Origin: a virus
Virus record (IMG/VR): IMGVR_UViG_3300025086_000139
Span: 1-30,939 of that record
Direction: 5' to 3' (one strand)
Length of the DNA stretch: 30,939 bases
This document shows, in pieces, positions 2 to 30,445 of the stretch. The stretch's first letter is position 1, and each line of letters begins with the position of its first letter. The notes beneath the pieces were generated by a model that saw only the letters and a program-made list of their open reading frames with translations, had not been told where the DNA came from and ran no database searches. The translations under genes were made by a program, and so were the position numbers.

Positions 2-3000
2 ACTTTTACTTTAGGAGAGAGCAACGATTCTACTACTGTTGCTGGTAATCTTACAGTAGCAGGAAATCTGACCATCAGTGGAAGTACAACTACAATTGAT
101 TCAAACAACGTCAACATAGGAGATAGCATAATCACTCTAAACTCTGATGAAACAGGTACACCATCACAAGACGCTGGTATAGAAGTAGAGAGAGGAAACC
201 AAACCAACAAGACACTATTTTGGGATGAGAGTGCAGGAAGATGGACAGTTGGCTCTGAGACATTCGTTGCAGGAACATTCATTGGTAATCTAACGGGAAC
301 TGTTTCTTCTGCTACTGCTTTGGCTAATGCTAGAAACTTCTCTATATCAGGAGACGTAACTGCTAATGCTGTATCCTTTGATGGAACTGGAAATGTTGCA
401 CTGGCTACTAGTCTTGCAGCAGGAGTTGTAGATACTGCGGAACTTGCTGGTTCAGCCGTTGAAACCGCTAAGATTGCTAATCTTAACGTTACCACTGATA
501 AGTTAGCAAATCAAGGTGTTACTTCTGCTAAGATAGCAAATGATGCAGTGATTAGTGCTAAGATAGCAGATGATGCTATTCTGACTGCTCATATCGCAGA
601 TGACCAAATTACTTCTGCACTAATAGCAGATGATGCTATAATATCTGATACGATTGCCAGTAACGCAGTTTTAGATGCCCACATAGCAGGTAGTATCTCT
701 CAGAATAAGATTACAGGATTGACATCTGCACTGGCAGGAAAGCAAGCAACACTGACTTATGGAACTGGTCTATCTAACTCAGGAAACACGGTAAATGTCA
801 ATATTCTTGAATTAAATGTTGAAAACGCAATAAATAGAACATTAGATTTCATAATGTTCAATGATGCAGATGGAGGGATAAAGAGAACCAATATCCTCAA
901 TATATTCAACAAAATGCAAGCATCTGACATACCTGACCTAAATGCCAGTAAGATTACAGGTGGTACTTTTGCTGATAGTAGAATACCAAGCCTAGCAACT
1001 AGCAAAATAACTAGTGGTACATTCGCTACTGCAAGAATCGCAGATAACGCAGTAACTTTCGATAAGGTTCAGGATATTGCATCAGGAGTGCTTCTAGGTA
1101 GAACTACTAGTGGTACAGGTGCAATAGAGACAATCTCTGCATCTGCCGCTAGAACATTCTTGAATGTAGATACTGCTGGAACGGACAATTCAACAAATGT
1201 CACTCTATCCGGTAGTAGAAACTATCTGACTCTAAGTGGACAACAAATAACTCTAGGTGAGATAGACATATCAGATGATACAAACTTGGTTGCAGGTAAT
1301 CGTGTCACGTTAAGTGGTGACACCTTGAATGTAGATGGTGACTTGGCTAACTATGACAACAGCAACAGTGGATTCCTAACAGCACACCCCACAATTTCCA
1401 GTGCAGCCAGTAGTTCCAATAATGAAGGTAGAACATACATTCAAGATATTACACTAGATAGCAACGGACACGTTGTAGGAATAGCAACTGGAACAGAGAC
1501 TGTTACTGATACTCAATACTCAGTAGGAGATGGAGGACTAACTCAAAATAACTTTACGAATGCATTGAAGAGTAAGTTAGACAGTATGGCTTCTAATGCC
1601 AACAACTACATTCTACCCAAAGCCACAGATTCGATTTTAGGTGGTTTCAAGGTTGGAAGCAATCTTACCATGAATGCTGTATCAGGAGTTCTGTCTGCTG
1701 ATACTCAGTCTGATGTCAACTTCACATCTGCTCTAAACACCAAGTTAGCAGGAATAGCAACTGGTGCAACGGCAGGTGCTAACTTCGCAACAAACGTTAG
1801 CAACATCTCAGTAACAAACGCTCAACTTGCTGGTAGTATTGCGAATAACAAACTGGCAAATTCATCAGTAACCGTGAACGGAAGCACTGTTGCTCTAGGT
1901 GGAAGTATTACTCTAACAACTGCAAACGTAGCAGAAGGAGCAAATCTATACTACACAGATGAAAGAGTGGATGATAGAGTCAACGCTTTAATTACTGATG
2001 GTGAGGGAATTACTACAACTTACAATGATGGGAACGGTACAATTGTCATAGATGTTGAGGATGCTACTGTATCTAACAAAGGAATCGCTTCATTTGCTAG
2101 TGCTGATTTTGACATATCTAGTGGAGCAGTCAGCATAAAATCAGGTGGTATAAGCAATGCACAACTCGCTGGTTCTATACCTAATAACAAATTAGCAGAT
2201 ATCGCACAGAGCAAGGTTACTGGTTTAGCCACTGCTCTAAACTCGAAAGTTGAGAACCTTGGTGATTTGAGTATAACTGCATCTGCTGCTGAAATTAACA
2301 TATTAGATGGAGTGTCAAATGTAAGTGCTGCTGAGATTAATCATCTAGATGGAGTAACATCATCTATACAGACACAACTCAATGCAAAACAAGCGGCTGG
2401 TAGTTACCTATCGACATCCTCAAGCATCTCAGACTTGTCAGATGTAAGTGGATTGGATACAAGTCTGACGAATATAGGTGGACATAACACATCCATTCCA
2501 ACCACCACTGCTGTAAAGTCATATGTGGATGTTCAGATATTCGATGCTATTGATACTCAGTATACGCTTAGGGCTGCTGATGGTGCTACATCAAATGCGA
2601 AGAAACTTGAACTCGCTGGAATAGATGGTTCAGTGACTAGCATTGGTTTCCAAGGAGTAGGAAACATTTCAGTTTCAAGAAACCACTTGGGGTTGACAAT
2701 CGATTCAGTAGCCAAGCCGATAAGTTCAGCAGCATTCAGTGGAAATACTCTAACTATAACGAAAACAGATAACACCACAGTTACCGCTACTATACCTGAT
2801 GCAACAACATCTGCTCATGGTCTGATGACTGACACCCAATTTGATAAACTGGCTGGAATTGAAGCGGGAGCAAATGTCACTGACAAAGCGAATGTTGTCG
2901 CTGCTCTTGCACTTCTCGATGAGACTGATACTCTACACATTGGCGATGCTGGTAATGATACTACTGTTAGGGTTAGGGGCAATCTCTTTGTTGATGGAAC

Positions 3001-5158
3001 AAGTACAACAGTAAATCAAACTAAAGTGAATGTTCAGAACGCATTCGTCTTTGAAGGTGCTTCTGCTGATGCTCACGAAACAACCCTGACAATAGTTGAC
3101 CCAACTGCTGACCGAACAATTAGCCTACCAAACATAAGTGGAACTCTAATTACAACTGGTGATACAGGGACAGTATCTTCAGGTATGATTGCAACAAATG
3201 CAATAACAAACGTCAAATTAGCCAACAATGCTGTTGATACTGCTGAGATAGCAGATAGTGCTGTTACTGCTATCAAGATGGCAACCGGAAGCGTAGTCAC
3301 TTCTAGACTAGCAGATGACAGTGTAACAACAGCGAAAATAGTGGATGATGCTGTTACCCCTGCTAAAATCAACATTATTGATGATTCAATTAGTGCAATT
3401 GATACACAAATCATGGTTGCAAACGGTACTCATTTCACAAACAAACCAGTTTCAGGAGATGCGACTATCAGCAACACTGGTGCTTTGACAATAGGGAACA
3501 ACAAAATCTCCACTGCGAAGATAATTGATGATGCAATAACCACTGACAAAATCGCTGCTGACCAAGTGACATATGCGAAGATTCAGAATGTATCTGCTGA
3601 TGAGAGGATACTAGGTAGGGTATCAGGTGCTAATGGAGTAATAGAGGAACTTACTGCAAGCCAAGTTCGCACAATGATAAATGTAGAATCAGGTGCTGAT
3701 GTAACTGTTGCTACTAATGTCGCAGCAGCCGGAGCAGTGATGGATTCAGATTTCAATTCTAATGGCTTAATGAAAAGAACTGGTGCAGGAACTTACACAG
3801 TAGTTGCAGTTGATTCTTCGGGACATCCTGACATATCCGCAGCAAGCGATAGTCTCAACTCAGGAAGAACATACATACAGGATATCGAACTTGATAGCAA
3901 TGGTCATGTAATTGGTTTGGCTACTGCTACCGAGACAGAGGTAAAGAGAACTCAGGAAGAGATTGAAGACTTCGTTGGTGGAATGGTCACAGGCAATACT
4001 GAGACATTCATCACAGTAGACTATCAAGATGGAGATGGTACGCTTGACTTCATAGTTCCAGTTCTAAATGAGAACAATTTGAACTCAAACTCTGCCACAC
4101 ATCTCGCTACCCAACAATCCATCAAGGCGTATGTGGATACCGAAATATCGGATTTAGTCAATAACGCACCTTCAACACTAGACACTCTGAAAGAAATAGC
4201 AGATGTGCTAGGAGATGATACTCAAATAGCGGGTACGATAATCGATGCTCTTGGAAACAGGGTGAGAACGGACACCGCTTCACAAGGTCTCGGTACGACA
4301 GCAAAGGCAAATGCTAGAGCAAACATAGGTGTAGATGTAGCGGGAACTGATAACTCAACAGATGTGACTCTTGCATCTGTGTCAAACAACTATCTCAGTA
4401 TTTCAGGACAGGCAATCACTGCTGGAACTGTGCCTCTCTCACTGGGAGGAACTGGGGCTACTTCAGCATCTGCCGCAAGAAGTGCATTAGGTGTTGATGC
4501 GGCTGGAACAGATAACTCCACTAATGTCACACTAACTGGCAGTGGAAACTATCTCAGTATCAGTGGACAAGCAATTACAGTTGACCCAATAGATATCTCA
4601 GATGATACTAACCTAACTGCTGGAACAGGGCTGACTCTAAGTGGAGATACACTGAATGTAAATGCAGCACAATCAGGAATCACAAGTGTTGGAACACTAT
4701 CTTCCCTAACTGTATCAGGAGATGTCACAGTAGACACTAACACATTCAAGATAGATACAACGAACAATCGTGTTGGTATTGGAACATCAACACCCGGATA
4801 CAAACTACAAGTAGAAGGCTCATTCGCTGCACAAACTAAGTCTTTCGTTATTCCACATCCTACACAAGAAGGTAAGACACTACAACATGGTTCTCTTGAA
4901 GGACCGGAACATGGAGTGTATCATAGAGGCAGACTAGAAGGAAGTGTGATACAACTACCTGAGTATTGGACAGAGTTGGTTGATGAGAATACAATTAGTG
5001 TTCAATTGACTGCTAATGGCGACTTTCAAATGCTCTATGTAGAAAAGATAGAAGACAACCAAGTGTTCGTGGCTAATGCAGCAGACGAGGGCATTGACTG
5101 TTTCTATCTGATTCATGGTGAGAGAAAGGATGTTGGAAAGATGGAGGTTGAATACTGA
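2..5158 (+). CDS. Giant repetitive tail-fibre-like structural protein (5' end outside window)
   Basis: The reading frame is open from the left edge, so the gene starts upstream. The first in-window start-like codon, a TTG at 320, is not the true start. At least 1718 residues are visible. The protein is low in Cys and Trp and rich in Ala, Thr, Ser, Asn and Asp. It is built of degenerate repeats typical of marine phage fibres: a GNLTVAGNLTISGSTTT block near the left edge, many IADDAI/AKIADDA units (about 440-720 and 3190-3590), AAEINILDGV units (2285-2370), and a VDPTADRTISLPN block (about 3098-3132). One VGIGTSTP unit occurs near 4773. The last ~105 residues (from about 4834) form a distinct non-repetitive domain with LEGPEHGVYHRGRLEG; I recall similar segments at the ends of cyanophage structural proteins. 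Its TGA overlaps the next start (TGATG), so the two fibre genes are probably co-translated. It likely forms part of the host-recognition fibre; the exact role is inferred. Confidence 0.75.
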   Translation, partial: TFTLGESNDSTTVAGNLTVAGNLTISGSTTTIDSNNVNIGDSIITLNSDETGTPSQDAGIEVERGNQTNKTLFWDESAGRWTVGSETFVAGTFIGNLTGTVSSATALANARNFSISGDVTANAVSFDGTGNVALATSLAAGVVDTAELAGSAVETAKIANLNVTTDKLANQGVTSAKIANDAVISAKIADDAILTAHIADDQITSALIADDAIISDTIASNAVLDAHIAGSISQNKITGLTSALAGKQATLTYGTGLSNSGNTVNVNILELNVENAINRTLDFIMFNDADGGIKRTNILNIFNKMQASDIPDLNASKITGGTFADSRIPSLATSKITSGTFATARIADNAVTFDKVQDIASGVLLGRTTSGTGAIETISASAARTFLNVDTAGTDNSTNVTLSGSRNYLTLSGQQITLGEIDISDDTNLVAGNRVTLSGDTLNVDGDLANYDNSNSGFLTAHPTISSAASSSNNEGRTYIQDITLDSNGHVVGIATGTETVTDTQYSVGDGGLTQNNFTNALKSKLDSMASNANNYILPKATDSILGGFKVGSNLTMNAVSGVLSADTQSDVNFTSALNTKLAGIATGATAGANFATNVSNISVTNAQLAGSIANNKLANSSVTVNGSTVALGGSITLTTANVAEGANLYYTDERVDDRVNALITDGEGITTTYNDGNGTIVIDVEDATVSNKGIASFASADFDISSGAVSIKSGGISNAQLAGSIPNNKLADIAQSKVTGLATALNSKVENLGDLSITASAAEINILDGVSNVSAAEINHLDGVTSSIQTQLNAKQAAGSYLSTSSSISDLSDVSGLDTSLTNIGGHNTSIPTTTAVKSYVDVQIFDAIDTQYTLRAADGATSNAKKLELAGIDGSVTSIGFQGVGNISVSRNHLGLTIDSVAKPISSAAFSGNTLTITKTDNTTVTATIPDATTSAHGLMTDTQFDKLAGIEAGANVTDKANVVAALALLDETDTLHIGDAGNDTTVRVRGNLFVDGTSTTVNQTKVNVQNAFVFEGASADAHETTLTIVDPTADRTISLPNISGTLITTGDTGTVSSGMIATNAITNVKLANNAVDTAEIADSAVTAIKMATGSVVTSRLADDSVTTAKIVDDAVTPAKINIIDDSISAIDTQIMVANGTHFTNKPVSGDATISNTGALTIGNNKISTAKIIDDAITTDKIAADQVTYAKIQNVSADERILGRVSGANGVIEELTASQVRTMINVESGADVTVATNVAAAGAVMDSDFNSNGLMKRTGAGTYTVVAVDSSGHPDISAASDSLNSGRTYIQDIELDSNGHVIGLATATETEVKRTQEEIEDFVGGMVTGNTETFITVDYQDGDGTLDFIVPVLNENNLNSNSATHLATQQSIKAYVDTEISDLVNNAPSTLDTLKEIADVLGDDTQIAGTIIDALGNRVRTDTASQGLGTTAKANARANIGVDVAGTDNSTDVTLASVSNNYLSISGQAITAGTVPLSLGGTGATSASAARSALGVDAAGTDNSTNVTLTGSGNYLSISGQAITVDPIDISDDTNLTAGTGLTLSGDTLNVNAAQSGITSVGTLSSLTVSGDVTVDTNTFKIDTTNNRVGIGTSTPGYKLQVEGSFAAQTKSFVIPHPTQEGKTLQHGSLEGPEHGVYHRGRLEGSVIQLPEYWTELVDENTISVQLTANGDFQMLYVEKIEDNQVFVANAADEGIDCFYLIHGERKDVGKMEVEY

Positions 5159-8100
5159 TGGGTAACTCGGACAAGGACATTCTAATTACGCCAAACAAAG
5201 GACAGAGTGCAAAACCAAAGATAGAGGTAACTGGTTTTGACAATACAACTAAGGCAATAGAAGTCAACAATGATGGTTCTCTGACATTCAATGCGAAGAT
5301 TGCAGCAACATCAGGTTCTGTTGCTGATGGCAACGCCAACTTAGTCACTGGTGATGCTGTATTCGATTACATAGCAGCACAGGGCTTCACTACGGAAGTT
5401 GGAGACATAACTAGAGTAATTGCAGGAACAGGGTTGTCAGGAGGAGGAGAAACAGGTGATGTCACACTGACTAACGCAGGTGTTACTTCGATTGTCGCTG
5501 GAAGTAATATATCGATTAGTGGTGGAACAGGTGCGGTAACGATAACAGGGACTGCTGACACTGATACACAATTGAGTAACTCAGAGGTAGAGACTGCTTA
5601 CAATGCTCAAGTGGGTCAGGTAAGTTCGACTGAGAGAACAAATGGGACTGAAACAGGAATCAGGAGATTCGCTCCTGCTGATGTCAAGAGTATGATAGAT
5701 ACTCATCAAACCGACACTAACACACAACGCACCGACTCACAGATTAAATCTGTCGTAGGAGCGATGTTCAGTGGCAATACAGAGACAGGAATATCTGCAA
5801 CATTCCAATCAGGTGACGGAACTATCGACCTAGTTGTTTCATCTGTTGGTGATACAACAGGAAACGCAGCGACTGCAACTAAACTACAATCAGCAGTAAA
5901 CATTGGAGGTGTAAGTTTTGATGGAAGTACAAGCATCAACTTACCCGGTGTAAACACAGGAGGTAATCAGAATACCACTGGTAATGCAGCAACCTCTACC
6001 CTTGCAAGCACAGTGACGGTATCTGATAGCACTGCTAACACTAACTTTCCAGTTGTATTCCATGATGAATCCAATGCACTTCTAGATGACACAAACGCAT
6101 TGAGATATAATCCTTCTACTGGAACTCTTTTAGTTCCTAACTTGAATGTAGCAGGAACTACGACACAGGTAAACACTGTGACAATGGAAGCAGCAAATGC
6201 CGTTGTATTTGAGGGAGCGACATCAGATGACTTTGAGACAACTCTAACTATCGTAGACCCTACTGCTGATAGAACCATATCTCTACCAAATGCAGGTGGA
6301 ACAGTAGCAGTATCTGCTTCGGGCGGAATAGCACTATCTTCTGCTGGTGATATCACAGCCAACTTGTCTGCTTCTCATATTCCTACCTTAAACGCATCCA
6401 AGATAACAGCCGGGACTTTCGGAACTGCAAGAATACCCACACTAAATACTTCAAAGATAACAGCAGGGACATTCAACGATAATAGAATAGCAGAGAGCAA
6501 CGTCACACAGCATCAGGCTGCTCTTTCAATAACAGAGTCGCAAATAAGTGACTTGCAATCTTATCTGACTGCACCTAGAACTGTGACTGCTGGTGGTCAG
6601 ACATTAGCAAACGGAGAGACTCTAGCCTTTACTGCCGGAACTGGAATTAGTATTTCTGAGAGCAATGGTGCAGTAACAATTACCAATACTGTTTCTGATA
6701 CCAATACCTTCAGACCTGTTACTGCTGGTGGCAACACACTCGCTTCAAATGAAACTCTTGCTTTTACAGCAGGTAGCAACGTGACGATAACAGAGGTAGA
6801 TGGAGCAGTTACTATTGCATCAACCGACACTAACACCGTCTACGTTCATCCTAACCATAGTGGTGAAGTAACCTCTACTTCTGATGGTGCTACTGTCATA
6901 GCAGACAACGTAATAGATGAAGCAAATCTAAAGGTAACAAATACTGCTGTGGATAACTATCTATTAAGTTATGATTCTGCATCAGGTGGCTTCACTTGGG
7001 TAGCAGCAGGTGCAGGTGGAGAGAACAATCAGAATGCCTTCAGCAATGTAGTAGTTGGTTCAGATACAATAGCAGCAGATTCAGCAACTGACACGCTGAC
7101 ATTAGCAGCAGGTTCTAATGTAACAATTACGGCTAATACATCTAACGATACTGTTACCATTGCATCCACAGATACTAGCCTAAGCACAGAGCAGGTTCAG
7201 GATATCGTAGGAGCGATGTTTGAGACAACAAACACTGAGAGTGGAATCACTGTCACATACCAAGACTCGACAGGAGACATAGACCTTTCAGTAGCAAGTC
7301 AAACAGACAACAACTTCACAACAACCCTCAAGAACAAACTAGATGGCATAGAAACTGCTGCTACTGCTGACCAAACAGCAGCAGAAATCAGAACACTAGT
7401 CGAGTCTGCCTCTGACTCAAATGTGTTTACTGACGCTGACCACACTAAGTTGAATGCTATTGAGACAGGTGCTACTGCTGACCAGTCTGCTGCTGAAATA
7501 AGGACATTGATAGAGTCAGCATCTGATTCCAATGTCTTCACAGATGCAGACCATACGAAACTGAATGCAATAGAGGCAAGTGCTACTGCCGACCAAACAG
7601 GAGCAGAGATAAAGACAGCACTATTCAACGAGTCTGACACAAACAACCTGACAGATACCCTACTAAGCAAACTCAATGCTATCGAGGCTAGTGCCACTGC
7701 TGACCAAACTGCGGCAGAAATTAGAACTCTAGTTGAATCGGCAACAGACTCCAATGTATTTACGGATGCAGACCACTCCAAGTTGAACGCCATTGAAGCA
7801 TCTGCAACAGCAGACCAAACGGCATCTGAGATAACTGCTCTACTGAATGATGTTGCCAGTTACTCACTTGGAACAACCAGCAGTGGAACTATCGCTGTAA
7901 ACAATGACATGACCGTAGCAGGAGATTTGACTGTAACGGGAACAACTACGACTAACAATGTAGAAACTGTAAGCACTAGCAATGGTGTGATATTTGAAGG
8001 AAATCAAGCAGATGGCAATGAGGTAACTCTACTAGCAGGTTCTGTAACAGCCGATAGAACAATTACATTGCCTGATGCAGCAGGAACAGTAGCGGTATCA

Positions 8101-11100
8101 GCGTCAGGAGGAGTGGCATTATCTGCTGCTGGTAACATAACAGCGAACCTATCAGCATCTCACATACCTACTATAACAGCAAGTAAGGTAACTGAGATAT
8201 CCAACTTAACAGCAGCAGAGGGAGCACAGTTAGAGAACATAGGTTCTACAACGATATCAGCAGCACAATGGGGATACCTTGGTGCAGCAACAGGAGCGAT
8301 AACTAACACAGACACTCAACTGTCTGATGCAGAGGTTATCGCTGCACTTAACTCAGACTTAGGTGGAGACATCGTATTCGGAACTCAGACCGATGATGAG
8401 GTCAGGTTCGGTGGAGATGTATCAGGTAGAGTGGCAAATGGAACAGGAAGCAATCTATATCGCTTCGGGGGTCTATACCTCACATGGGATGCAGATAACT
8501 ACGGAACAAACTTCAATCACTCAATCACTTCTACCGAGAATGGGTCTTTCAGTGACAGTCTAACCATCAACTCATACGACAAGATTCGTCTGAACATGGA
8601 CACCAACTCCAACAATAACGACTCGTATATTCAGTTCGGTAGGCATTCCACTGGTACGGGTGGAGACATCTTCATGACCATTGAAGATGGAGGTAAAGTA
8701 GGTATAGGAAGTACAAGTCCTGATGCTCAGTTAGAGGTAGTCGGTGCATTAGCACCATCATCTGCAACTCAATTCTCATATGCTGAGACATTGAAGTTGG
8801 ATGTAGCAGACGGTGGAACTGCCGAAGGTCCAGCAATCAGATTCAGACAAGGTGCGACTAGTGACCACAATGCTGCTGATTATATGTTCCAAGTGATGGG
8901 TGATGGTGGTAGTTCGGTTTCACACGAATACTCCTTCAACTATGGATGGAGAAAGTGGCATCATGCTACTGGTGCTGATGGCTTCAAGCCAGTAATGAGG
9001 TTCAAAGCAGCAGGAGACAGTAGTGCTAGTGGAACACAATACGGAGAGTTTATTCTAACTTCAACCGCTACTGCATGGGATGTCTATGATGGAACACATA
9101 CAGGACTTGAGCCTTCTACATTCGATACTAAGATAAAGTTGAGTGGTGGTGAGACATCATACATCAACAATGGACAGAACTTCGGAATAGGCACTACGAA
9201 TCCTGTATCTGAATTAGACTTGAGTACGGGTGCGTTGTCATTCGCTAACACCAACACACAACTCAAACTGTCCGGTGGGTCGAATGTAGATTTCCAACTT
9301 GGGCATTGGGGCAACACTCACATCCTCATAGACACAGATGGAAATGACTCAAGCAGATATTTCGCTGTAAGTCATGGTAATGCTACTGCTGGTTCTGCGA
9401 CTGAGTTAATGCGTGTGCAAGAGAATGGTAGGGTCGGAATAGGCACTACGAGTCCTGTCAGACCGCTTCACGTTGTCGGGGATGCCTATGTGCAGAATGG
9501 CGACATACTTCTCTCAAGAGGAAACTTCTACCTACAAGATGCAAGCGATGCTACCAAGCGAGGTAGTTTCACAAGCGATGGTGTTTGGGCTTGGGAGAAT
9601 GTCAATGTCGGAATAGGCACTACAAGTCCTAATGCTAAATTAGAGGTTGATGGAACTATAAAAGTAGACCCAACTGGAACATACTCAGCAGTAACAGGTA
9701 GTGGTAGTGATACGTCTACGGTAGCGGGTATAGTATTCGATGGCGATGCTGAACTCTTCAGGGAGTCAAATGGCTATCTCAGAAGGATAATCGGTGCTAG
9801 TAGCAGCACAATCACAATCGGTCAAACAGGAACTTCGATATGGGACACCATTGACCTGATACCCGGACATAGTGGAAAGGTCAGAATATACTCTGATGAC
9901 CCTTCTACTAACGCAAGTAACCTACTTACGCTAACAGCAGATGATGGAGTTGTAAACACTCGCCAGTTACAAGTTGGAAGTGGTGCGACAGTCACTTCAA
10001 TCAACACTTCTTTCTCCGACAATGATACTTCCCTGATGACTTCCCAAGCAATCAAGGAGAAGATTGAGAATTACGGATACATCACTTCTCAAATGACATT
10101 CATTCTAGAGGATGATGATGGCACTGAGGTCTCTATATCAAATGCTGAAGAGGTTAAGTTTTTCAGTAGCGATACAAGTATTGACATTAATTACACCGAC
10201 ATATCTCCGGGTTCAGACTCAGACCCATTCGATTTGAGTTTCAAAACTCTACACGCTCCTTATCTACATACAGTAGATGATAGAGACTTTGCTCCTGAAG
10301 ATTTAACCACTACCCAAAGACAAATATTCGGATTGTTCTCTACAAAGACAGGATTAGAAGATGGTTCAACCACCAACGGTTCTGACTATACTGATACTCT
10401 AATATTCGACACTTACACAGGTGACTCAGGTGGAGAGGCTAACCTACTAGCACTATCTAAGAATAGTACACAAAGAATCTATCATTATCGTGCTGCTAGA
10501 GATGCTACTGATTGGGGAACTGCCTCTACTTTAGCATACACAAGTGATGTCCCAACAACGGAAGCGATTCAGGATATCGTTGGAGGTATGTTCTCTAGTA
10601 ACACTGAGACAGGTATAACGGCAACATATCAAGACAGCGATGGTACAGTTGACTTAGTAGTTGGCACATTGAATCAGGATACGACAGGGAATGCAGCGAC
10701 AGTAACAGTTGCTCTTGATGAATCTACAAGTGCCAACAATGCTATCGTATTCCATAGAAGTGATGGGTCATTAGCAAGAGATGGTGGTTTCAGATTCAAT
10801 CCGGGTAGCGATGCAATGATTGTGCCAAAGATTTCTGCGTCAGGAGCAGTAACTGTTGGTACTTTAGAAATTGGTGGTAGTGGTGTTGTCGCTACAACTA
10901 TTTTAGATGAAGATAATATGTCTTCAAACTCTGCTACTGCTTTAGCATCTCAACAGTCTATCAAAGCATATGTGGATGCAAATGCAGGTGGTGGTGGTGG
11001 TTCTCCCGGTGGTTCAGACACTTTCATTCAATACAACAATGGCGGTTCTTTCGGTGCTACTACTCTCTCCTATGATGACACATCAGGTGCAGAACAATAC

Positions 11101-11997
11101 AAGATAGACGTATCATCAAGCGAAACCCCGTTTGTTATAGTGCAGACTGGTGCTGGAAATTCGTTTGAGGTTCATGATGCTGCTGACCCCGATAATAACA
11201 GGTTTCAGATTTCTAATTCAGGTAATGTCACAATAAAAGGTCTAAACGGTGGAGGTTGGGGTCAAGCGTTATATGTGGCTGGAAATACTATAAGTTCTAG
11301 ATTTAGGGCTGAACAAAGTTCTGCTGCTAATCCGGCATTTGTTAGTGCTTATGATTTAGATACAGGAATGCTCTTCCCTGCTGCTAATACCGTAGGATTT
11401 TCAACAGGTGGAACTGAAAGATTAAGATTAGGTTCTAGTGGTGAAATATTAGTTGGTGGTACGGCTGCTGGAAGTAGTGGTCAAGTATTAACTTCCGGTG
11501 GTAGCGGTGCTGCTGTTTCTTGGACTAGTGTTAGTGGTGGTTCTTCCACTACTGGTTCTTTCTACTTAATTGCAGAAGAAAGTAACTGGCAACTGAATGT
11601 TGGTTCTTCAAATGGTTTCCATTGGTCTTTCGGTAATGGTTCTGATATAGGAGATGCACCGTCTTCTAATGCAAAGAACGAAGGTATTGCACTACCTATT
11701 GATTGTACGTTGAAGTTCTTGCACTTGAACTGTGCAAATGACGGTAATGAAACCGCAGGTAACAGTGCAACTGTTCAGATATACAAAGCAAATGCTGCCA
11801 ATTCAAGTCAATCAGCAGTTTCCGGTACTGCAATAACCGCTACTGTTGCTACTAATGGACACGGTATATCTGCTACTGGTGACTACGATGTTGATTTTGA
11901 CAAGGGAGATATCGTTCTGTTCAGGTCTACTACGGCTAATCAATCAGGAATATATCTAGGTAGAGGAACAATATCAGCATACTTTGTGGAGAGGTGA
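5158..11997 (+). CDS. Second giant tail-fibre / adhesin-like protein, 2279 residues
   Basis: Starts at an ATG overlapping the previous stop, with GGAGG about 10 bases upstream. It shares modules with the preceding protein, including two copies of a [FE]EG...TADRTI[ST]LP block, each followed by AGGTVAVSASGG or a close variant and NLSASHIP (about 6205-6380 and 7988-8165). A 37-residue tandem repeat lies at residues ~727-898. Four VGIG[ST]T[SN]P-type units sit near residues 1180, 1342, 1426 and 1483, as in many marine phage fibres. A glycine linker (AGGGGGSPGGS, residue ~1944) precedes the last third. The C-terminal ~150 residues (from about 11553) are non-repetitive and probably form a globular tip that contacts the host. 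Codon choice changes over roughly the last kilobase. No enzymatic motif was seen. Fibre function is inferred from repeat type, size, and adjacency to a tail-chaperone-like gene. Confidence 0.75.
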   Translation: MGNSDKDILITPNKGQSAKPKIEVTGFDNTTKAIEVNNDGSLTFNAKIAATSGSVADGNANLVTGDAVFDYIAAQGFTTEVGDITRVIAGTGLSGGGETGDVTLTNAGVTSIVAGSNISISGGTGAVTITGTADTDTQLSNSEVETAYNAQVGQVSSTERTNGTETGIRRFAPADVKSMIDTHQTDTNTQRTDSQIKSVVGAMFSGNTETGISATFQSGDGTIDLVVSSVGDTTGNAATATKLQSAVNIGGVSFDGSTSINLPGVNTGGNQNTTGNAATSTLASTVTVSDSTANTNFPVVFHDESNALLDDTNALRYNPSTGTLLVPNLNVAGTTTQVNTVTMEAANAVVFEGATSDDFETTLTIVDPTADRTISLPNAGGTVAVSASGGIALSSAGDITANLSASHIPTLNASKITAGTFGTARIPTLNTSKITAGTFNDNRIAESNVTQHQAALSITESQISDLQSYLTAPRTVTAGGQTLANGETLAFTAGTGISISESNGAVTITNTVSDTNTFRPVTAGGNTLASNETLAFTAGSNVTITEVDGAVTIASTDTNTVYVHPNHSGEVTSTSDGATVIADNVIDEANLKVTNTAVDNYLLSYDSASGGFTWVAAGAGGENNQNAFSNVVVGSDTIAADSATDTLTLAAGSNVTITANTSNDTVTIASTDTSLSTEQVQDIVGAMFETTNTESGITVTYQDSTGDIDLSVASQTDNNFTTTLKNKLDGIETAATADQTAAEIRTLVESASDSNVFTDADHTKLNAIETGATADQSAAEIRTLIESASDSNVFTDADHTKLNAIEASATADQTGAEIKTALFNESDTNNLTDTLLSKLNAIEASATADQTAAEIRTLVESATDSNVFTDADHSKLNAIEASATADQTASEITALLNDVASYSLGTTSSGTIAVNNDMTVAGDLTVTGTTTTNNVETVSTSNGVIFEGNQADGNEVTLLAGSVTADRTITLPDAAGTVAVSASGGVALSAAGNITANLSASHIPTITASKVTEISNLTAAEGAQLENIGSTTISAAQWGYLGAATGAITNTDTQLSDAEVIAALNSDLGGDIVFGTQTDDEVRFGGDVSGRVANGTGSNLYRFGGLYLTWDADNYGTNFNHSITSTENGSFSDSLTINSYDKIRLNMDTNSNNNDSYIQFGRHSTGTGGDIFMTIEDGGKVGIGSTSPDAQLEVVGALAPSSATQFSYAETLKLDVADGGTAEGPAIRFRQGATSDHNAADYMFQVMGDGGSSVSHEYSFNYGWRKWHHATGADGFKPVMRFKAAGDSSASGTQYGEFILTSTATAWDVYDGTHTGLEPSTFDTKIKLSGGETSYINNGQNFGIGTTNPVSELDLSTGALSFANTNTQLKLSGGSNVDFQLGHWGNTHILIDTDGNDSSRYFAVSHGNATAGSATELMRVQENGRVGIGTTSPVRPLHVVGDAYVQNGDILLSRGNFYLQDASDATKRGSFTSDGVWAWENVNVGIGTTSPNAKLEVDGTIKVDPTGTYSAVTGSGSDTSTVAGIVFDGDAELFRESNGYLRRIIGASSSTITIGQTGTSIWDTIDLIPGHSGKVRIYSDDPSTNASNLLTLTADDGVVNTRQLQVGSGATVTSINTSFSDNDTSLMTSQAIKEKIENYGYITSQMTFILEDDDGTEVSISNAEEVKFFSSDTSIDINYTDISPGSDSDPFDLSFKTLHAPYLHTVDDRDFAPEDLTTTQRQIFGLFSTKTGLEDGSTTNGSDYTDTLIFDTYTGDSGGEANLLALSKNSTQRIYHYRAARDATDWGTASTLAYTSDVPTTEAIQDIVGGMFSSNTETGITATYQDSDGTVDLVVGTLNQDTTGNAATVTVALDESTSANNAIVFHRSDGSLARDGGFRFNPGSDAMIVPKISASGAVTVGTLEIGGSGVVATTILDEDNMSSNSATALASQQSIKAYVDANAGGGGGSPGGSDTFIQYNNGGSFGATTLSYDDTSGAEQYKIDVSSSETPFVIVQTGAGNSFEVHDAADPDNNRFQISNSGNVTIKGLNGGGWGQALYVAGNTISSRFRAEQSSAANPAFVSAYDLDTGMLFPAANTVGFSTGGTERLRLGSSGEILVGGTAAGSSGQVLTSGGSGAAVSWTSVSGGSSTTGSFYLIAEESNWQLNVGSSNGFHWSFGNGSDIGDAPSSNAKNEGIALPIDCTLKFLHLNCANDGNETAGNSATVQIYKANAANSSQSAVSGTAITATVATNGHGISATGDYDVDFDKGDIVLFRSTTANQSGIYLGRGTISAYFVER
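7336..7851 (+). repeat. Tandem 111-bp (37-residue) repeat, about 4.6 copies
   Basis: Within the second fibre gene, units begin at the KLDGIE/KLNAIE motif and recur every 37 residues. The shared core is ATADQ[TS]xAEI[RK]T, followed in most copies by ESASDSNVFTDADH. The third unit diverges in its second half. Protein identity is high, but the DNA copies differ at many synonymous third positions. They are therefore old or selectively diversified repeats rather than fresh duplications. Confidence 0.85.
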
Positions 11998-16895: not shown

Positions 16896-16951
16896 TATTT
16901 ATTCCTCTCTCTATATTCTTTTTTTCTTCTAAAGTATTCTTTCCATTTCAT
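16895..16951 (-). CDS. Candidate 18-residue basic micro-ORF
   Basis: Reads MKWKEYFRRKKEYRERNK. Its ATG overlaps the TGA of the Cas4-like gene (TGATG) and its TAA overlaps the next ATG (TAATG), so it exactly bridges what would otherwise be a gap. It is strongly basic and probably helical. It may be a real peptide, or a short coupling frame that carries ribosomes to the next start. Length alone cannot prove coding. Confidence 0.3.
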   Translation of the reverse strand: MKWKEYFRRKKEYRERNK

Positions 16952-17832
16952 CAGAACCAACTCTCCGTGTTAGCAGCATCACATATACCAAAGAAACTGC
17001 AATTTGAACAGGTCTTTGCGAAATACTTCGTTGGGAATATACCCGTTTCGTATGAGTGAATCAATTGTGCAATACCCTTCTTCACTGCCGTTATGCTACT
17101 TTTCTTGACTTCCTCAACATAGATGTAGTTAGCCGCAGGATAGTACCAACCCCAATGAGAGATAGGTATCTCAGGGTCTAATCCCCATTCTCTCAACTTC
17201 TCATCGGGTGTATTCTCAAAGAGAATCTTGTAGAAGGCCATCTCCTTACGCATCATAGTAGTCTTCCAATCCTTCCAACCACCAGTCTTTAATTCCATAG
17301 GAATGTATCTTTCCCCTTCTTTGAACATACGGTCAATGATACCTTGAAGATGAACAACATAATCTTGCTTTAACGGATACTTTGAATTCTCATCCTTGTT
17401 GATTACAATCTTCGCATCTAACATTATCTCATTGATAACTGGAACAAAGTCTTCAATTGTTCCTTCATCTCTTGCTTCTATGAATCTGTTCGCCTCAAAG
17501 ATAGACATTGCCTCATACATCTCATCATAGTCATCTATGGGATGAAGTTCCATACAGTAATTAACAAGTTCTTCGTAAGACATGTCCTCTGCTTTCTTTA
17601 CATCGAAAGTATTGAAGAAGTCCTCTCTTGCATTGTGTATGATACTTCCCTTAATCATGACCTCAGTTGTTTCTATTGGCATTCTTTCCTTATATTGAAA
17701 CTCATACCTCTTAGGACACCACTGGAAAGAACCAAGCGATGACTTGGATATCTTCAATATAGGATACTCTTCATCCCCGTAATACTCAGGTTGCCATTGA
17801 TATGTGTATTCATTTGTATTGCTTTGTCTCAT
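16951..17832 (-). CDS. Cas4/RecB-like PD-(D/E)XK nuclease with iron-sulphur cysteines
   Basis: 293 residues from an ATG overlapping the polymerase stop (TAATG), with GGAGG nine bases upstream. Motifs in order: SSLGSFQWCPKRYEF (first cluster Cys, C39), GSIIHNARE (H66), LQGIIDRMF (D167), YIPMELKTGG (E180, K182), and CSNCSFFGIC (C275, C278, C284). This is the Cas4/AddB arrangement, with one N-terminal and three C-terminal cysteines holding a 4Fe-4S cluster. No cas genes or CRISPR array are nearby, so a CRISPR role is unlikely here. It is more likely a replication or recombination exonuclease. The C terminus ends ESWF, faintly like a PCNA-binding tail. Confidence 0.87.
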   Translation of the reverse strand: MRQSNTNEYTYQWQPEYYGDEEYPILKISKSSLGSFQWCPKRYEFQYKERMPIETTEVMIKGSIIHNAREDFFNTFDVKKAEDMSYEELVNYCMELHPIDDYDEMYEAMSIFEANRFIEARDEGTIEDFVPVINEIMLDAKIVINKDENSKYPLKQDYVVHLQGIIDRMFKEGERYIPMELKTGGWKDWKTTMMRKEMAFYKILFENTPDEKLREWGLDPEIPISHWGWYYPAANYIYVEEVKKSSITAVKKGIAQLIHSYETGIFPTKYFAKTCSNCSFFGICDAANTESWF

Positions 17833-18713
17833 TAAAACCATTCCTCCAACGTTTTTTGTCTACTATCCACTGATATCTTCCTGATATCCCAACCCATCGC
17901 TCGATAGATTGGTTCTGCTTTTTTAATAACTGATTCAGAATAGTGTGACCAGTCAGGCTCGTAATCGTAGAAGTCATCTTCTACTAGCAAGGACACATAC
18001 GTTGCTTTAACGTTCTGTCCAGTTATTGGATTGTAGAATGTTTCTTTGCTGCTTATTTTTAGATACAAGTATGTATCAGTTATCTCCTCATAGCCTTTGG
18101 AATGGCTGAACAGTACACCTGCTATACCTGAACCAACAGTAGGTCTCTTACCCTTTGTTGTTGTGAAGTTCAAGTTATTTGCTGCACAACATGGCTTCTC
18201 CATCAAACTGAACATAGAATTTCTCCTACGACAGTTCTTACAGTCAACCATGAACCTCTCTTCACGGTATCTACTTCTCTGAAGTATGTCTGATAGAGGA
18301 ATCTCACCTCTGAGAACTTGATTATACATATCTTTCAGATATTTTGTCACTTCTTCTTCAGATTTACCTTCTACCCACATGTTTAGCACTGAAAGTTGAA
18401 CATCTTTGGCTAATTTAGTCAAGGAAACCCTCTTTGCAGTGAATCCAGTCATAACAAACTCCTCTTTATCGAGAAATTCACCGTCTTTCCATGTAATCAG
18501 ACCTGCATTTCTGTTTTTTGTTGCTCCAACACCCAAAGTTCTGAAGTATTTCTCAAACTCTAGTGTTACGGGATGCTCTTCTAGTCCCATAACGTTAGGA
18601 AATGACTTTCTAACGTGTTCATTCAGTATTTTTAGGGTCTTTTCAGCAGTTTCGATGCTGTTGTCCTCAATATCAACGTAAATTGAGTCAGTATGACCAT
18701 AAACCACCTTCAT
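17832..18713 (-). CDS. polB: Family B DNA polymerase, C-terminal fragment (motif C to PIP box)
   Basis: 293 residues starting MKVVYGHTDS. This is polymerase motif C (usually YGDTDS), with His in place of the first Asp (H7) and the key second Asp (D9) kept. The rest is palm end and thumb, including a FTAKRVSLTKLAKDVQ region. A Cys-rich insertion (CKNCRRRN...KPCCAA) lies about halfway. The last residues, SRQKTLEEWF, are a textbook C-terminal PIP box for binding the sliding clamp. I reject a longer GTG start 99 bases upstream: the ATG here overlaps the preceding micro-gene stop (ATGA) and has GGAG eight bases before it. Joined with the N-terminal fragment it makes about 847 residues, normal for an archaeal PolB, with almost nothing missing at the break. 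Confidence 0.88.
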   Translation of the reverse strand: MKVVYGHTDSIYVDIEDNSIETAEKTLKILNEHVRKSFPNVMGLEEHPVTLEFEKYFRTLGVGATKNRNAGLITWKDGEFLDKEEFVMTGFTAKRVSLTKLAKDVQLSVLNMWVEGKSEEEVTKYLKDMYNQVLRGEIPLSDILQRSRYREERFMVDCKNCRRRNSMFSLMEKPCCAANNLNFTTTKGKRPTVGSGIAGVLFSHSKGYEEITDTYLYLKISSKETFYNPITGQNVKATYVSLLVEDDFYDYEPDWSHYSESVIKKAEPIYRAMGWDIRKISVDSRQKTLEEWF

Positions 18714-18826
18714 GCTAACAACTCCACTGCTATAATTGATGCAATAATCACTTTTACAAGACTGAACACTGTCCTTAGTAGTGCAAGTGTTGCAAATCTG
18801 TCCTGTGACCACTTTTCTATACTCAT
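18710..18826 (-). CDS. 38-residue membrane micro-protein between the polymerase halves
   Basis: Begins MSIEKWSQDR and continues as a hydrophobic helix (LVKVIIASIIAVELLA at the end). It overlaps the upstream gene by ATGA and the downstream polymerase fragment by ATGA, giving an uninterrupted coupled chain. A longer reading of the polymerase fragment would hide this gene in another frame. One membrane span is likely. No family is recognised. Confidence comes from the double overlap and the hydrophobic pattern. Confidence 0.55.
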   Translation of the reverse strand: MSIEKWSQDRFATLALLRTVFSLVKVIIASIIAVELLA

Positions 18827-19029
18827 ATTACATTCACATCCTGTAAAAGTGAAAACAAACCGTAAATGAAGATAGAAACGAACAAAACCTTACTTGAAAT
18901 GCTCAAAAACTTCCTTGCATCCTTAAAAATCTGATTCATAGCCTCTTTTCTTAACTCAGACTCTGATTTCTCAGGTTTCTCTTCTTTTTTACTCTTTAAA
19001 AAATCAATATTCGCACTTTTTATTGGCAT
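18823..19029 (-). CDS. 68-residue tail-anchored membrane protein between the polymerase halves
   Basis: The first ~40 residues are highly charged (KSKKEEKPEKSESELRKEA). A hydrophobic C-terminal helix follows (VLFVSIFIYGLFSLL). The topology suggests a soluble helical head anchored by its C terminus. The ATG overlaps the polymerase N-terminal fragment's TAA (TAATG) and the TGA overlaps the next micro-gene (ATGA). No family is recognised. The position inside a split polymerase suggests, without proof, a link between replisome and membrane. Confidence 0.65.
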   Translation of the reverse strand: MPIKSANIDFLKSKKEEKPEKSESELRKEAMNQIFKDARKFLSISSKVLFVSIFIYGLFSLLQDVNVI

Positions 19030-20693
19030 TATAATTCCCTCACTTTGAATGCAGCAGTTCTGATTGCTTCTCTAGCACTAGCAGTTATACTAGCAGCCAA
19101 ATCAACATCAGCCCACCCAAATCCTTGAAATGCAACGATTCCATAGAATGAAGCCATTAATCTCTTGACCGCAAGTTGATTGTTGTTCCACTTAACATAG
19201 TCGGATTTGTTTTTACTTTCTTTCATCATTTTCTTGTATTCGTTTCTTAATACTTTCAGGTCTAGAACTGCTTGTGGTAGTAGACCTAGTTTGTCTGTCT
19301 TGTAATATCTCATATCATAGTCTTCTATATCTGAGAAGTCTTTTGGTGTTTTTATGTTCACCCCAAACTCAGTTGGTTCAGTAGACTTAGTTTCCCAAGA
19401 TATATTCCTAGCAATCATCATACTTGGATATAGACCTGCGAAATCAAATGCTGCAACTCCCAAGTGAAGACCATTTGTAGCCTCACTGAGAGGGTCATAG
19501 ACCATCGCACCATCGTAGTCTACCCTGTCACCTTTCATGCCCGTAGGGGCTTTCCAAGAGGCATTACGCATGAAGTATATTCCACCCATGTTAGAGGCGT
19601 AGAAACATGCATCGAATGGTGCAATCAGCAAACGTTGTAACGATAGTATCGCTTCAGTTGTAAAGTTCTCATCATCTATCCTCTTGATTAACTCAACGTC
19701 TTTCAAAGCATACTCTAGATAGGTTTCAGTGTCTTCTTGCCAGCCTCTCCTGAAGAACTCGTTCTTATCAGGAAACTTATCGCTGACTAACTTCTTCTCA
19801 CCTAGAACACTCTCAGATACATAGTCTAGAGATAGTGAAGGAAGTGTTCCCCTCTGTGCATCATTCCATTGTCTCTCAAAGGCTAGGTCTAATGGTACGC
19901 ATATTCTACCTTTGATTGGTTGATTGATAGGGCTATACCCATCAATACCATACTTACCATAAGACAGTTTAACTTTAGACTCAGATAAGGAAAAAGATAC
20001 ACCATCCACTTCCATACAAGGAGATAGTATTCTTGGGTCTATCTCATTTTCATGTAGTCTCTCAATCAACTTAGGTAGGTCGAACTTCCAACCGAACCAA
20101 GAGATTAGCATGTCAGGGTCTTTCTCCCTAATCATTAGAACAAACTCCTCAAGCATTTCCTTCTCCGTTCCCGAATCAGGTTGCCAAGTAAGAGTGTGAT
20201 ACTCATCATCAAAGTTATCGTAGACAACAATGGCCGTGATAGCACCATCATGTTCACCACCTTGCATCCACTCCATGTCCCAATACCACTTACGCATATC
20301 ATACTCAGGAAGTTCATTCATCATGTCAACGGCATATCTGTAATGGTGTCTGACATCTGCTTCGTATGTTCTATCTCCTCTATCATGGAAGAAAGCCTTC
20401 ACCTTATTCATGTACTTGCTATGGCTAGGTGTCCAAGTTACTTTTACGAGTTCTCTACCCTGAAGATTCTTCCAACCTCCTTGATGATACTCAAGACTCA
20501 TACTGAATGAAGCATTTCTCTTACTCCTAGTTTCTTTGATGTAGATAGTATCGCCGTCAAGTTTTACAGAACGTGCGTTTCTCTCAACAAAGAAGTGGGG
20601 TTGGAAGTCGTAGAAAGAAACTAACTCTTCTCTACGCTTACCATCCTCACGCCATCTAAGACATATACCTGCATTCGTATTCGTAATTATCAT
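19029..20693 (-). CDS. polB: Family B DNA polymerase, N-terminal fragment (exonuclease and motifs A, B)
   Basis: 554 residues. Proofreading domain: Exo I WYWDMEWM (D139, E141), Exo II SWFGWKFDLP (D205, but Phe at 200 where Asn is usual), Exo III YALKDVE (Y328, D332). Polymerase domain: motif A AFDFAGLYPSMM (D417) and motif B KRLMASFYG (K510, Y517; Ala514 where Asn is usual). The frame stops at residue 554, about 36 residues after motif B, exactly before motif C should appear. Motif C opens a separate gene 316 bases downstream. Split PolB enzymes are known in Methanothermobacter and Nanoarchaeum. The start follows the clamp gene, with AAGGTGAT upstream. It should be active only when joined with the C-terminal fragment. 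Confidence 0.92.
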   Translation of the reverse strand: MIITNTNAGICLRWREDGKRREELVSFYDFQPHFFVERNARSVKLDGDTIYIKETRSKRNASFSMSLEYHQGGWKNLQGRELVKVTWTPSHSKYMNKVKAFFHDRGDRTYEADVRHHYRYAVDMMNELPEYDMRKWYWDMEWMQGGEHDGAITAIVVYDNFDDEYHTLTWQPDSGTEKEMLEEFVLMIREKDPDMLISWFGWKFDLPKLIERLHENEIDPRILSPCMEVDGVSFSLSESKVKLSYGKYGIDGYSPINQPIKGRICVPLDLAFERQWNDAQRGTLPSLSLDYVSESVLGEKKLVSDKFPDKNEFFRRGWQEDTETYLEYALKDVELIKRIDDENFTTEAILSLQRLLIAPFDACFYASNMGGIYFMRNASWKAPTGMKGDRVDYDGAMVYDPLSEATNGLHLGVAAFDFAGLYPSMMIARNISWETKSTEPTEFGVNIKTPKDFSDIEDYDMRYYKTDKLGLLPQAVLDLKVLRNEYKKMMKESKNKSDYVKWNNNQLAVKRLMASFYGIVAFQGFGWADVDLAASITASAREAIRTAAFKVREL

Positions 20694-20697
20694 ATTA

Positions 20698-21453
20698 TCA
20701 CCTTGCTATGTATGGGGCTTTAATCAGCACCCTATCTTCTGCTTTCCAAACAATAGGAGACTCATCCTTCAAGAATATCTTGACCTCTGTGTTCTTAGGA
20801 AAGAACTTGTGAAACTGTCCAGTAACCTCGACAGTAGAGGGGTCTCCACTTATGTCAGTAGTTGCAACAGTCGTTACCACCTTATCAGTGATAGACTTCT
20901 CACTACTCATTGTGAATGTCTCATCAACATTGAAGTGATACCTTGCATTGTTAATCACATCACATCTCTTCACGGCATCAGTTAGATTATCTGAGTTAGT
21001 TGTTATCACTGTCTCAAACTCAACACTACCAAACATGGGATTGTTTTCATCTATCTCATAACCTTGAAGTCTCGCAATCATTGCGGTACTAGGATGAGAT
21101 ACAACAAGAGGAAGTGAGGCAGTGCTACTGCCATCACTAACCTTGACGTAATCTCCAATCTCGATTAGAACCGTTTCATTGAAGGTCTTAAGATACTTCA
21201 GAGTCTTTTCTATCTCTATCGTTACTAGACCTACATCCTGTTTCTCAGAAGTCAGAGTCTCTATTGTTAGACCACAGACAGTTGTGTTATCTGCATTATA
21301 CAATGTTATTGTTGAGTTGTCACAATCTAGTTCTAGCATTGCATAGTCAGAAACTTGACTGTTCTTTGCATTGTCTCCATTGTGATATTTCCCTTTCATC
21401 TGTATATCTATTAACGCATCAGATAGCGTTTTTGTATTCATTCGTATTCTCAT
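20698..21453 (-). CDS. PCNA-like DNA sliding clamp
   Basis: 251 residues, the usual length of archaeal or eukaryotic PCNA (about 245-260). The N terminus has KTLSDALIDI where PCNA has its first helix. The C terminus (VKIFLKDESPIVWKAEDRVLIKAPYIAR) follows the PCNA ending: a strand, the Pl.w segment, and a final AP. The middle is divergent. It would encircle DNA as a ring and tether the polymerase, whose C terminus carries a PIP box. It lies directly upstream of the polymerase, with four bases between them. The start has GAGGAATAAAT before the ATG. A divergent trimer-forming clamp is the best reading. Confidence 0.8.
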   Translation of the reverse strand: MRIRMNTKTLSDALIDIQMKGKYHNGDNAKNSQVSDYAMLELDCDNSTITLYNADNTTVCGLTIETLTSEKQDVGLVTIEIEKTLKYLKTFNETVLIEIGDYVKVSDGSSTASLPLVVSHPSTAMIARLQGYEIDENNPMFGSVEFETVITTNSDNLTDAVKRCDVINNARYHFNVDETFTMSSEKSITDKVVTTVATTDISGDPSTVEVTGQFHKFFPKNTEVKIFLKDESPIVWKAEDRVLIKAPYIAR

Positions 21454-29706: not shown

Positions 29707-29897
29707 TTCTTAGCACCTTCCTCGATTGTTCTCATTATCTTCTTGTCAGCGTATCCGTAAGATACATCCATGCCGAATCCTATCTCATGCATCATTTGCA
29801 TGAGCATGACCATCCTATCTTCAATGTGATGTGGTGGGTCACATGGCTCACCATCAATATCATACTGCAATGCTATCGTGTAGAACTTCTTACTCAT
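29703..29897 (-). CDS. Hypothetical protein, 64 residues
   Basis: Soluble, Met-rich in the middle (DRMVMLMQMMHEIG), with an N-terminal strand and DGEPCDPPHH. Starts at an ATGA overlap with the JAMM-protease gene and ends at an ATGA overlap with the next. A His/Cys/Asp cluster could bind metal, but no motif is recognised. Confidence 0.55.
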   Translation of the reverse strand: MSKKFYTIALQYDIDGEPCDPPHHIEDRMVMLMQMMHEIGFGMDVSYGYADKKIMRTIEEGAKK

Positions 29898-30445
29898 TCC
29901 TCTTCACCTTCCAATACGTCTTCTGCTGCTTTGACCCACTCAGGTTTCTCGACAGGCTCTTGTCTGTAAATACCATAGTGAACCTTCTTCGCTATCTCAG
30001 TGTTAACATCATAAGCGATGAACTGATTGTCTCCTAGAACAGTTGCACTTTCCAACATGCTCTTCCATGTGTTGATTGTCTTCCAATCAGTTCCACTGAA
30101 GAAAGCCTGACCGAATGGGTGTGTATGTATCCAGCACTTCAATGGCAACTTCATGCCACCTAGTTGTTCTTCTTGGTCTTTGAAACTCACAAAGCCAAAC
30201 GTTCCAACGCTGATATACAAGTCATCTTTGGCATCTACGATAACCTGAACCTCTCTTGGCGAATCAAACGCCTCAATAGACTTGTTCCAAATCACTGTGT
30301 AGAATGCCTCCGTCTGTATGTCGGGGAACGGATACGAGAACTCAACCTGCTCAAACACAGTCTTGATGTCCTCTTTCCAGTTCTCATCTACTATCTCTAA
30401 TCCTTGTATTCCATTTTCATTATATTCTGTTTCATCTGTTTTCAT
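29894..30445 (-). CDS. JAMM/MPN-type metalloprotease-like protein
   Basis: 183 residues. WIHTHPFGQAFFSGTD gives the JAMM zinc signature HxHx(7)Sx(2)D (H107, H109, S117, D120), with exact spacing. The upstream Glu that completes the active site is not certain; a few Glu lie in the N-terminal half. Family members include deubiquitinases, archaeal enzymes acting on SAMP modifiers, and phage tail-tip proteases. Its setting among small zinc and hypothetical proteins, away from tail genes, fits removal of a host ubiquitin-like tag better than tail assembly, but this is inference. AGGAGG lies eight bases before the ATG. Confidence 0.75.
   Translation of the reverse strand: MKTDETEYNENGIQGLEIVDENWKEDIKTVFEQVEFSYPFPDIQTEAFYTVIWNKSIEAFDSPREVQVIVDAKDDLYISVGTFGFVSFKDQEEQLGGMKLPLKCWIHTHPFGQAFFSGTDWKTINTWKSMLESATVLGDNQFIAYDVNTEIAKKVHYGIYRQEPVEKPEWVKAAEDVLEGEEE

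Follow-up and report, generated by a model that had tools for sequence, protein, structure and literature searches.

The replicative DNA polymerase of magroviruses, which are viruses of marine Poseidoniales archaea, is probably an obligate two-chain enzyme, encoded by coupled genes on either side of an ancient break that hosts exchanged micro-genes. We examined a magrovirus-like contig of 30,939 nucleotides (IMG/VR virus record IMGVR_UViG_3300025086_000139, positions 1 to 30,939, analysed over its full length and hereafter called the window), in which a family B DNA polymerase (PolB) is encoded as two pieces with two micro-genes between them. The N- and C-terminal parts of the enzyme form two separate genes within the viral replication module. 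A first-pass annotation, made from the sequence of the window, had given the coordinates and sizes of both halves and both small genes correctly and had described the small genes as coupled to both halves by stop/start overlaps, which we confirmed in the DNA as TAATG, ATGA and ATGA. The features of the split locus, in the order in which they are read, are as follows.

19029..20693, minus strand: PolB N half, 554 amino acids (aa), with the N-terminal domain, 3'-5' exonuclease, palm motif A and fingers motif B
19027..19031, minus strand: TAATG stop/start overlap from the N half to micro-gene 1, by direct DNA reading
18823..19029, minus strand: micro-gene 1 (family F2), 68 aa, with one predicted membrane segment
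18823..18826, minus strand: ATGA stop/start overlap from micro-gene 1 to micro-gene 2, by direct DNA reading
18710..18826, minus strand: micro-gene 2 (family F7), 38 aa, with a predicted membrane segment
18710..18713, minus strand: ATGA stop/start overlap from micro-gene 2 to the C half, by direct DNA reading
17832..18713, minus strand: PolB C half, 293 aa, starting at the ATG at 18713, with palm motif C, a thumb with a Cys cluster and a C-terminal PIP-like box
18684..18701, minus strand: motif C, YGHTDS, in which His replaces the first Asp of DTDS
17835..17858, minus strand: PIP-like box, QKTLEEWF

A longer, 326-aa open reading frame (ORF) for the C half, with a GTG start at 18812, was rejected; it overlaps micro-gene 2, and the ATG at MKVVYGHTDS is the start kept in relatives.

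The N half carries the exonuclease motifs Exo I (D139/E141), Exo II (D205) and Exo III (D332), followed by motif A (DFAGLYPS) and motif B (KRLMASFYG), all conserved in relatives, and the C half carries motif C, likewise conserved, which bears out the earlier placement of the split between motifs B and C. Invariant carboxylates are D139, E141, D205, D332, D417 in motif A and D9 of the C half; Exo II is without the usual Asn. The two halves gave complementary matches to the Pfam family PF00136 (DNA_pol_B), covering positions 38-195 (N half, E 3e-20) and 212-363 (C half, E 2e-11), and they covered positions 18-560 and 574-721, respectively, of the polymerase profile phrog_262. When aligned to a solved archaeal PolB, the N half ended at Tgo Pol residue 527 and the C half began at residue 535. 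By the Tgo Pol and phrog_262 alignments, about 2-10 residues are absent at the junction, in the loop before motif C, in keeping with the first-pass view that almost no sequence is missing compared with intact archaeal PolB. The break site is a short loop inside the palm that links the helix following motif B to the beta-strand with motif C. The PIP box that had been described at the end of the C half is a PIP-like QxxLxxW[FW] sequence conserved among relatives.

Structure models were consistent with these assignments. The best Foldseek match was an archaeal PolB for both the N-half model (E 4e-16) and the C-half model (E 2.5e-7). In the AlphaFold models, confidence was high for the thumb and for the N-terminal and exonuclease regions and low for the palm in each half modelled alone, which would fit a palm that takes shape only once the two chains are together. 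A Cys cluster (CxxC ... CC, two Cys invariant) lies in the thumb region at residues 158-175 of the window's C half; the pattern is present in 88 of 115 C halves and is possibly a zinc site.

To assess how widely the arrangement is shared, we collected relatives by scanning IMG/VR and searched every retrieved locus with a profile, which gave 116 distinct contig loci with both halves. All 116 break at the same point and none is intact. The C half starts with [M/L/V]KVVY[G/A]HTDS at the same codon in every locus except two incomplete cases at contig ends. Median ratios of nonsynonymous to synonymous substitution rates (dN/dS) were 0.129 for the N half and 0.137 for the C half, indicating strong purifying selection on both. 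The identical break in 116 of 116 loci, the low dN/dS and the loss of only about 2-10 connecting residues together argue for a functional split rather than decay, as the first-pass annotation had proposed; that annotation had also named one continuous polymerase frame in related contigs as the sign of an assembly error, and we found no magroviral contig with such a frame. We give virtually no credence to the split being an artefact of assembly or sequencing, or to pseudogene decay, since 116 of 116 conservation and low dN/dS exclude assembly error and decay: a truncated N frame occurs in only one locus (L199), whereas the identical break recurs in loci from many metagenomes and catalytic residues are conserved in both halves.

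The best matches in the phage collection were haloviral and T4-like polymerases at about 24% identity, and no close magrovirus was found there. Among these best matches were the haloviral group B5 polymerases of HGTV-1, VOLN27B and HVTV-1, each a single continuous gene with GDTDS as motif C; with these haloviruses as the outgroup, the split falls on the stem of the group sampled here. Published work puts PolB of the B5, T4-like and Magro groups together (Kazlauskas 2020, PMC7544198). HTDS was present in every split copy (67 of 67 in the alignment, and all split loci in the profile search). HTDS alone should not be taken to mean loss of polymerase activity.

Two further observations concern the set of relatives. 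A scan of genome contigs returned a single viral contig, L290 (NZMJ01000151.1). It belongs to a magrovirus but is assigned to a Maricaulis metagenome-assembled genome, probably through binning contamination. In L009, the N half is identical to that of L010, the C half and nuclease are 96% like the window, and the breakpoint lies near the C-half start. This locus may be either a natural chimera or a chimeric assembly; if it is not an assembly product, halves from lineages that have diverged by about 25% would be swappable in nature.

The first-pass annotation had suggested looking in related contigs for both the break and the inserts. The break recurred in all of them, but the inserts did not, their contents varying from locus to locus. 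We took a census of the gap in 115 loci with a chained-ORF heuristic, whose gene counts are approximate because the chain rule prefers coupled ATG starts, and obtained 366 micro-genes, 0-9 per gap and with a median length of 58 aa, that fall into 72 sequence families; 98 encode predicted membrane proteins and 69 encode proteins with Cys-pair patterns. The other junctions of the module, which served for comparison, involve two neighbouring genes of the window.

20698..21453, minus strand: clamp-like gene directly upstream of the N half, with a weak profile match to the bacterial beta clamp (E=0.011); by sequence, probably the sliding clamp
16951..17841, minus strand: PD-(D/E)XK (Cas4/RecB-like) nuclease downstream of the C half

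The gap between the N and C halves exceeded 60 bases in 97% of loci, compared with 21% for the clamp-N junction, 32% for the RecA-like-clamp junction and 41% for the C-Cas4 junction; the Cas4-primase junction, which always exceeds 60 bases, is not comparable, as a further ORF occupies it in the window. The contents of the gap also turn over between close relatives. Among pairs with at least 95% N-half identity, only 39% had the same set of gap families, and in L001, whose N half is 95% identical to that of the window, the 38-aa gene is cleanly absent, the difference running up to the ATGA joint. Some gap families are not confined to the gap: six of them, one being F7, to which the window's 38-aa gene belongs, have matches beyond the C half in other loci, seven in the case of F7.

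In four loci (L046, L049, L059 and L064) the gap is gene-free yet the polymerase is still split, with N joined to C directly by ATGA or TAATG. These empty loci come from three or more lineages that nest among those with inserts, and their frames are not re-fused. Together, these comparisons show that the split is ancient, that the gap contents are young and exchangeable and that the junction is a tolerated exchange site for small genes. The first-pass suggestion that the small genes reflect an old insertion thus holds for the age of the split but not for its present occupants. Where N joins C directly, in the empty loci, the C half lies in the -1 frame, which might also suggest ribosomal frameshifting that joins both halves into one chain, but a slippery heptamer is absent at the four empty joints and whole genes intervene in most loci, and we regard such frameshifting as very improbable. 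An intein, an intron or frameshift repair in the empty loci was likewise rejected, there being no room for splicing elements and no slippery heptamer.

How the C half could be produced whatever the gap contains is suggested by the joints themselves. Of 481 joints, 335 are 4- or 1-base overlaps (-4 or -1), and a Shine-Dalgarno-like 4-mer was found at the end of the upstream gene in 80% of these joints vs. 33% in shuffles. A terminal EE or EEE is shared by 57 micro-proteins of 19 families (for example in L034, L036 and L079), apparently because their last codons encode a Shine-Dalgarno-like sequence before ATGA; in the cases that we looked at, these codons form a purine-rich, Shine-Dalgarno-like stretch. 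A micro-gene would thereby carry the start signal of the next gene, and could be gained or lost without cutting off the C half. We propose that reinitiation at the overlaps would yield both halves whatever lies between them, and that the two chains would bind non-covalently and rebuild the palm active site, with motif A supplied by the N chain and motif C by the C chain, while the C chain would dock on the viral clamp through its PIP-like tail. At the junction, small genes with their own Shine-Dalgarno-ATGA end are gained, lost and replaced as the split stays fixed. The 68- and 38-aa proteins are two of these passengers, and would have a separate, infection-related role rather than being polymerase subunits. 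More tentatively, and with appreciable doubt, the permanent break may act as a recombinase-free gene-capture site, into which small genes ending in a Shine-Dalgarno-like sequence and ATGA are dropped, removed and swapped with C-half production undisturbed; the virus would then keep the split perhaps since the site is useful for trading accessory genes.

The first-pass annotation had raised the possibility that the two small proteins anchor the polymerase at the membrane. Both are between the halves with coupled starts, and both are coding and under purifying selection (dN/dS 0.30 for the 68-aa and 0.16 for the 38-aa gene). Their membrane segments are predicted from hydropathy only, with best 19-residue means of 1.9 and 2.4, and neither protein of the window had a match in Pfam or PHROGs searches. 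At least one predicted membrane gene is present in 70 of the 115 gaps, but 45 gaps have none and four have no gene at all, the gap membrane genes come from unrelated families whose identity changes from clade to clade, F7 occurs after the C half as well, the close relative L001 does without the 38-aa gene, and gap contents turn over faster than the polymerase. Membrane anchoring fails as a general reason for the split, and we consider it improbable that the window's two membrane proteins tether replication to the cell membrane by binding the polymerase halves. Since membrane genes make up a somewhat larger share of the gap genes than of coupled small ORFs elsewhere (27% vs. 15%, a crude comparison), some gap proteins may have a membrane role in replication.

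Several points weigh against the two-chain interpretation with interchangeable passengers. The assembly of the two chains is something we infer, the halves having each been modelled as a single chain, and the low palm confidence of the lone halves may equally stem from shallow alignments of 20 sequences. The His for Asp substitution in motif C leaves room for an activity that is lower or different. How many genes are counted in a gap depends on the ORF-chaining heuristic, and the excess of membrane genes in the gap given above, crude as it is, leaves room for a replication link of some of them.

The break may have originated when a gene for a free-standing endonuclease, of homing or nicking type, inserted in the conserved motif C region; this gene would later have been lost, and other small genes would have taken its place. 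We consider this route a realistic possibility, though one with less than an even chance, and it is compatible with our best explanation of how the locus works at present. Mobile-type endonucleases do occur in a few gaps: L031 carries a 114-aa CRESS-type HUH endonuclease domain (Viral_Rep, PF02407, E=4.4e-17; family F37, L031:5410-5754), L253 has an HNH protein directly after the N half (PF01844, 21.6 bits with a cut-off of 21.4), and in L281 a gene in the same position gives a weak HNH match and has a relative in L232. By their sequences, the HNH-type proteins of L253 and L281 are candidate homing endonucleases. An HNH gene in HVTV-1 and a LAGLIDADG gene in HGTV-1 lie directly upstream of the intact PolB, and endonucleases that split phage replication genes provide a precedent (PMC2988022). 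On the other hand, an endonuclease gene at the break is absent in the window and present in only about 4 of 115 relatives, and those found are of unrelated kinds, are nested in the tree and look like late arrivals in a gene that was split before. By analogy with T4-like phages, the gap endonucleases would lend support to this route, but they are too rare and too nested to be proof.

An unlikely alternative is that the break arose when an intein at the motif C site was lost imperfectly, as has been proposed for PolB of Methanobacteriales and is seen as trans-splicing in Nanoarchaeum. The same route has been proposed for split archaeal PolB3 (PMC4104785), and the magroviral break is close to motif C. 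However, no intein remnant was noticed among the listed gap proteins, those gap proteins that were scanned against Pfam gave none, and the empty loci have no room for splicing elements. No split intein parts were seen at the fragment ends, where the N half finishes with FKVREL and a stop and the C half starts with MKVVYGHTDS, with no extra domain. Moreover, the break falls before motif C, whereas the pol-c intein site is inside the motif. An intein route that left no remnants is possible.

Elsewhere in the window, a protein with a JAMM-like motif (HTHPFGQAFFSGTD) is encoded at 29894-30445 on the minus strand, with a Prok-JAB match below the cut-off. Two giant repetitive proteins of 1612 and 2279 aa, encoded at 320-5158 and 5158-11997 on the plus strand, are likely of the tail-fibre type.

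Split PolB enzymes of Methanothermobacter and Nanoarchaeum resemble that of the window in being archaeal-type and two-chain, but they are cellular PolB3. The Nanoarchaeum halves are trans-spliced by a split intein, and the Methanothermobacter enzyme is reportedly active as a complex (Kelman 1999, cited in PMC4104785); we know of no micro-gene exchange in either system. A split PolB has been described for Methanobacteriales (PMC4104785). Viral PolB encoded as two genes (gp43A/gp43B) is also found in the T4-like Aeromonas phages 25 and 44RR. The split gp43 halves of phage 25 co-purify and are active (PMC2988022), and gene 43 is intact in T4 itself (PMC4177764). In the T4-like Acinetobacter phage ZZ1, six small ORFs lie between gp43A and gp43B, but the break is between motifs A and B. 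Motif C of these T4-like polymerases is DTDS, and their split is an independent event.

For magroviruses, a figure legend in the Aoguangviridae profile of the International Committee on Taxonomy of Viruses (PMC10768690) labels 'PolB-NTD/CTD' in Poseidoniales virus YSH_150918, a virus of the same order as the window and, by that labelling, with the same two-gene polymerase; the accessible part of the profile text does not discuss the position or conservation of the break, HTDS or the gap genes. The novelty that the first-pass annotation saw in small genes between the polymerase halves is accordingly narrower than it had seemed: the magrovirus split was already in that profile, and ZZ1 has small ORFs between its halves, albeit at a different break. 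The accessible literature, outside which the primary magrovirus papers fall, held no account of a group-wide fixed break, changing gap contents, loci that are empty but split, or HTDS.

In this group, a replicative polymerase stays split through the palm beside a catalytic motif, with no re-fusion in 116 loci, even where the gap is empty. The fixed HTDS provides a natural test of the need for the first Asp in PolB. Two questions become testable: are split polymerases favoured by selection or only tolerated, and by what means do viruses with compact genomes acquire small genes?

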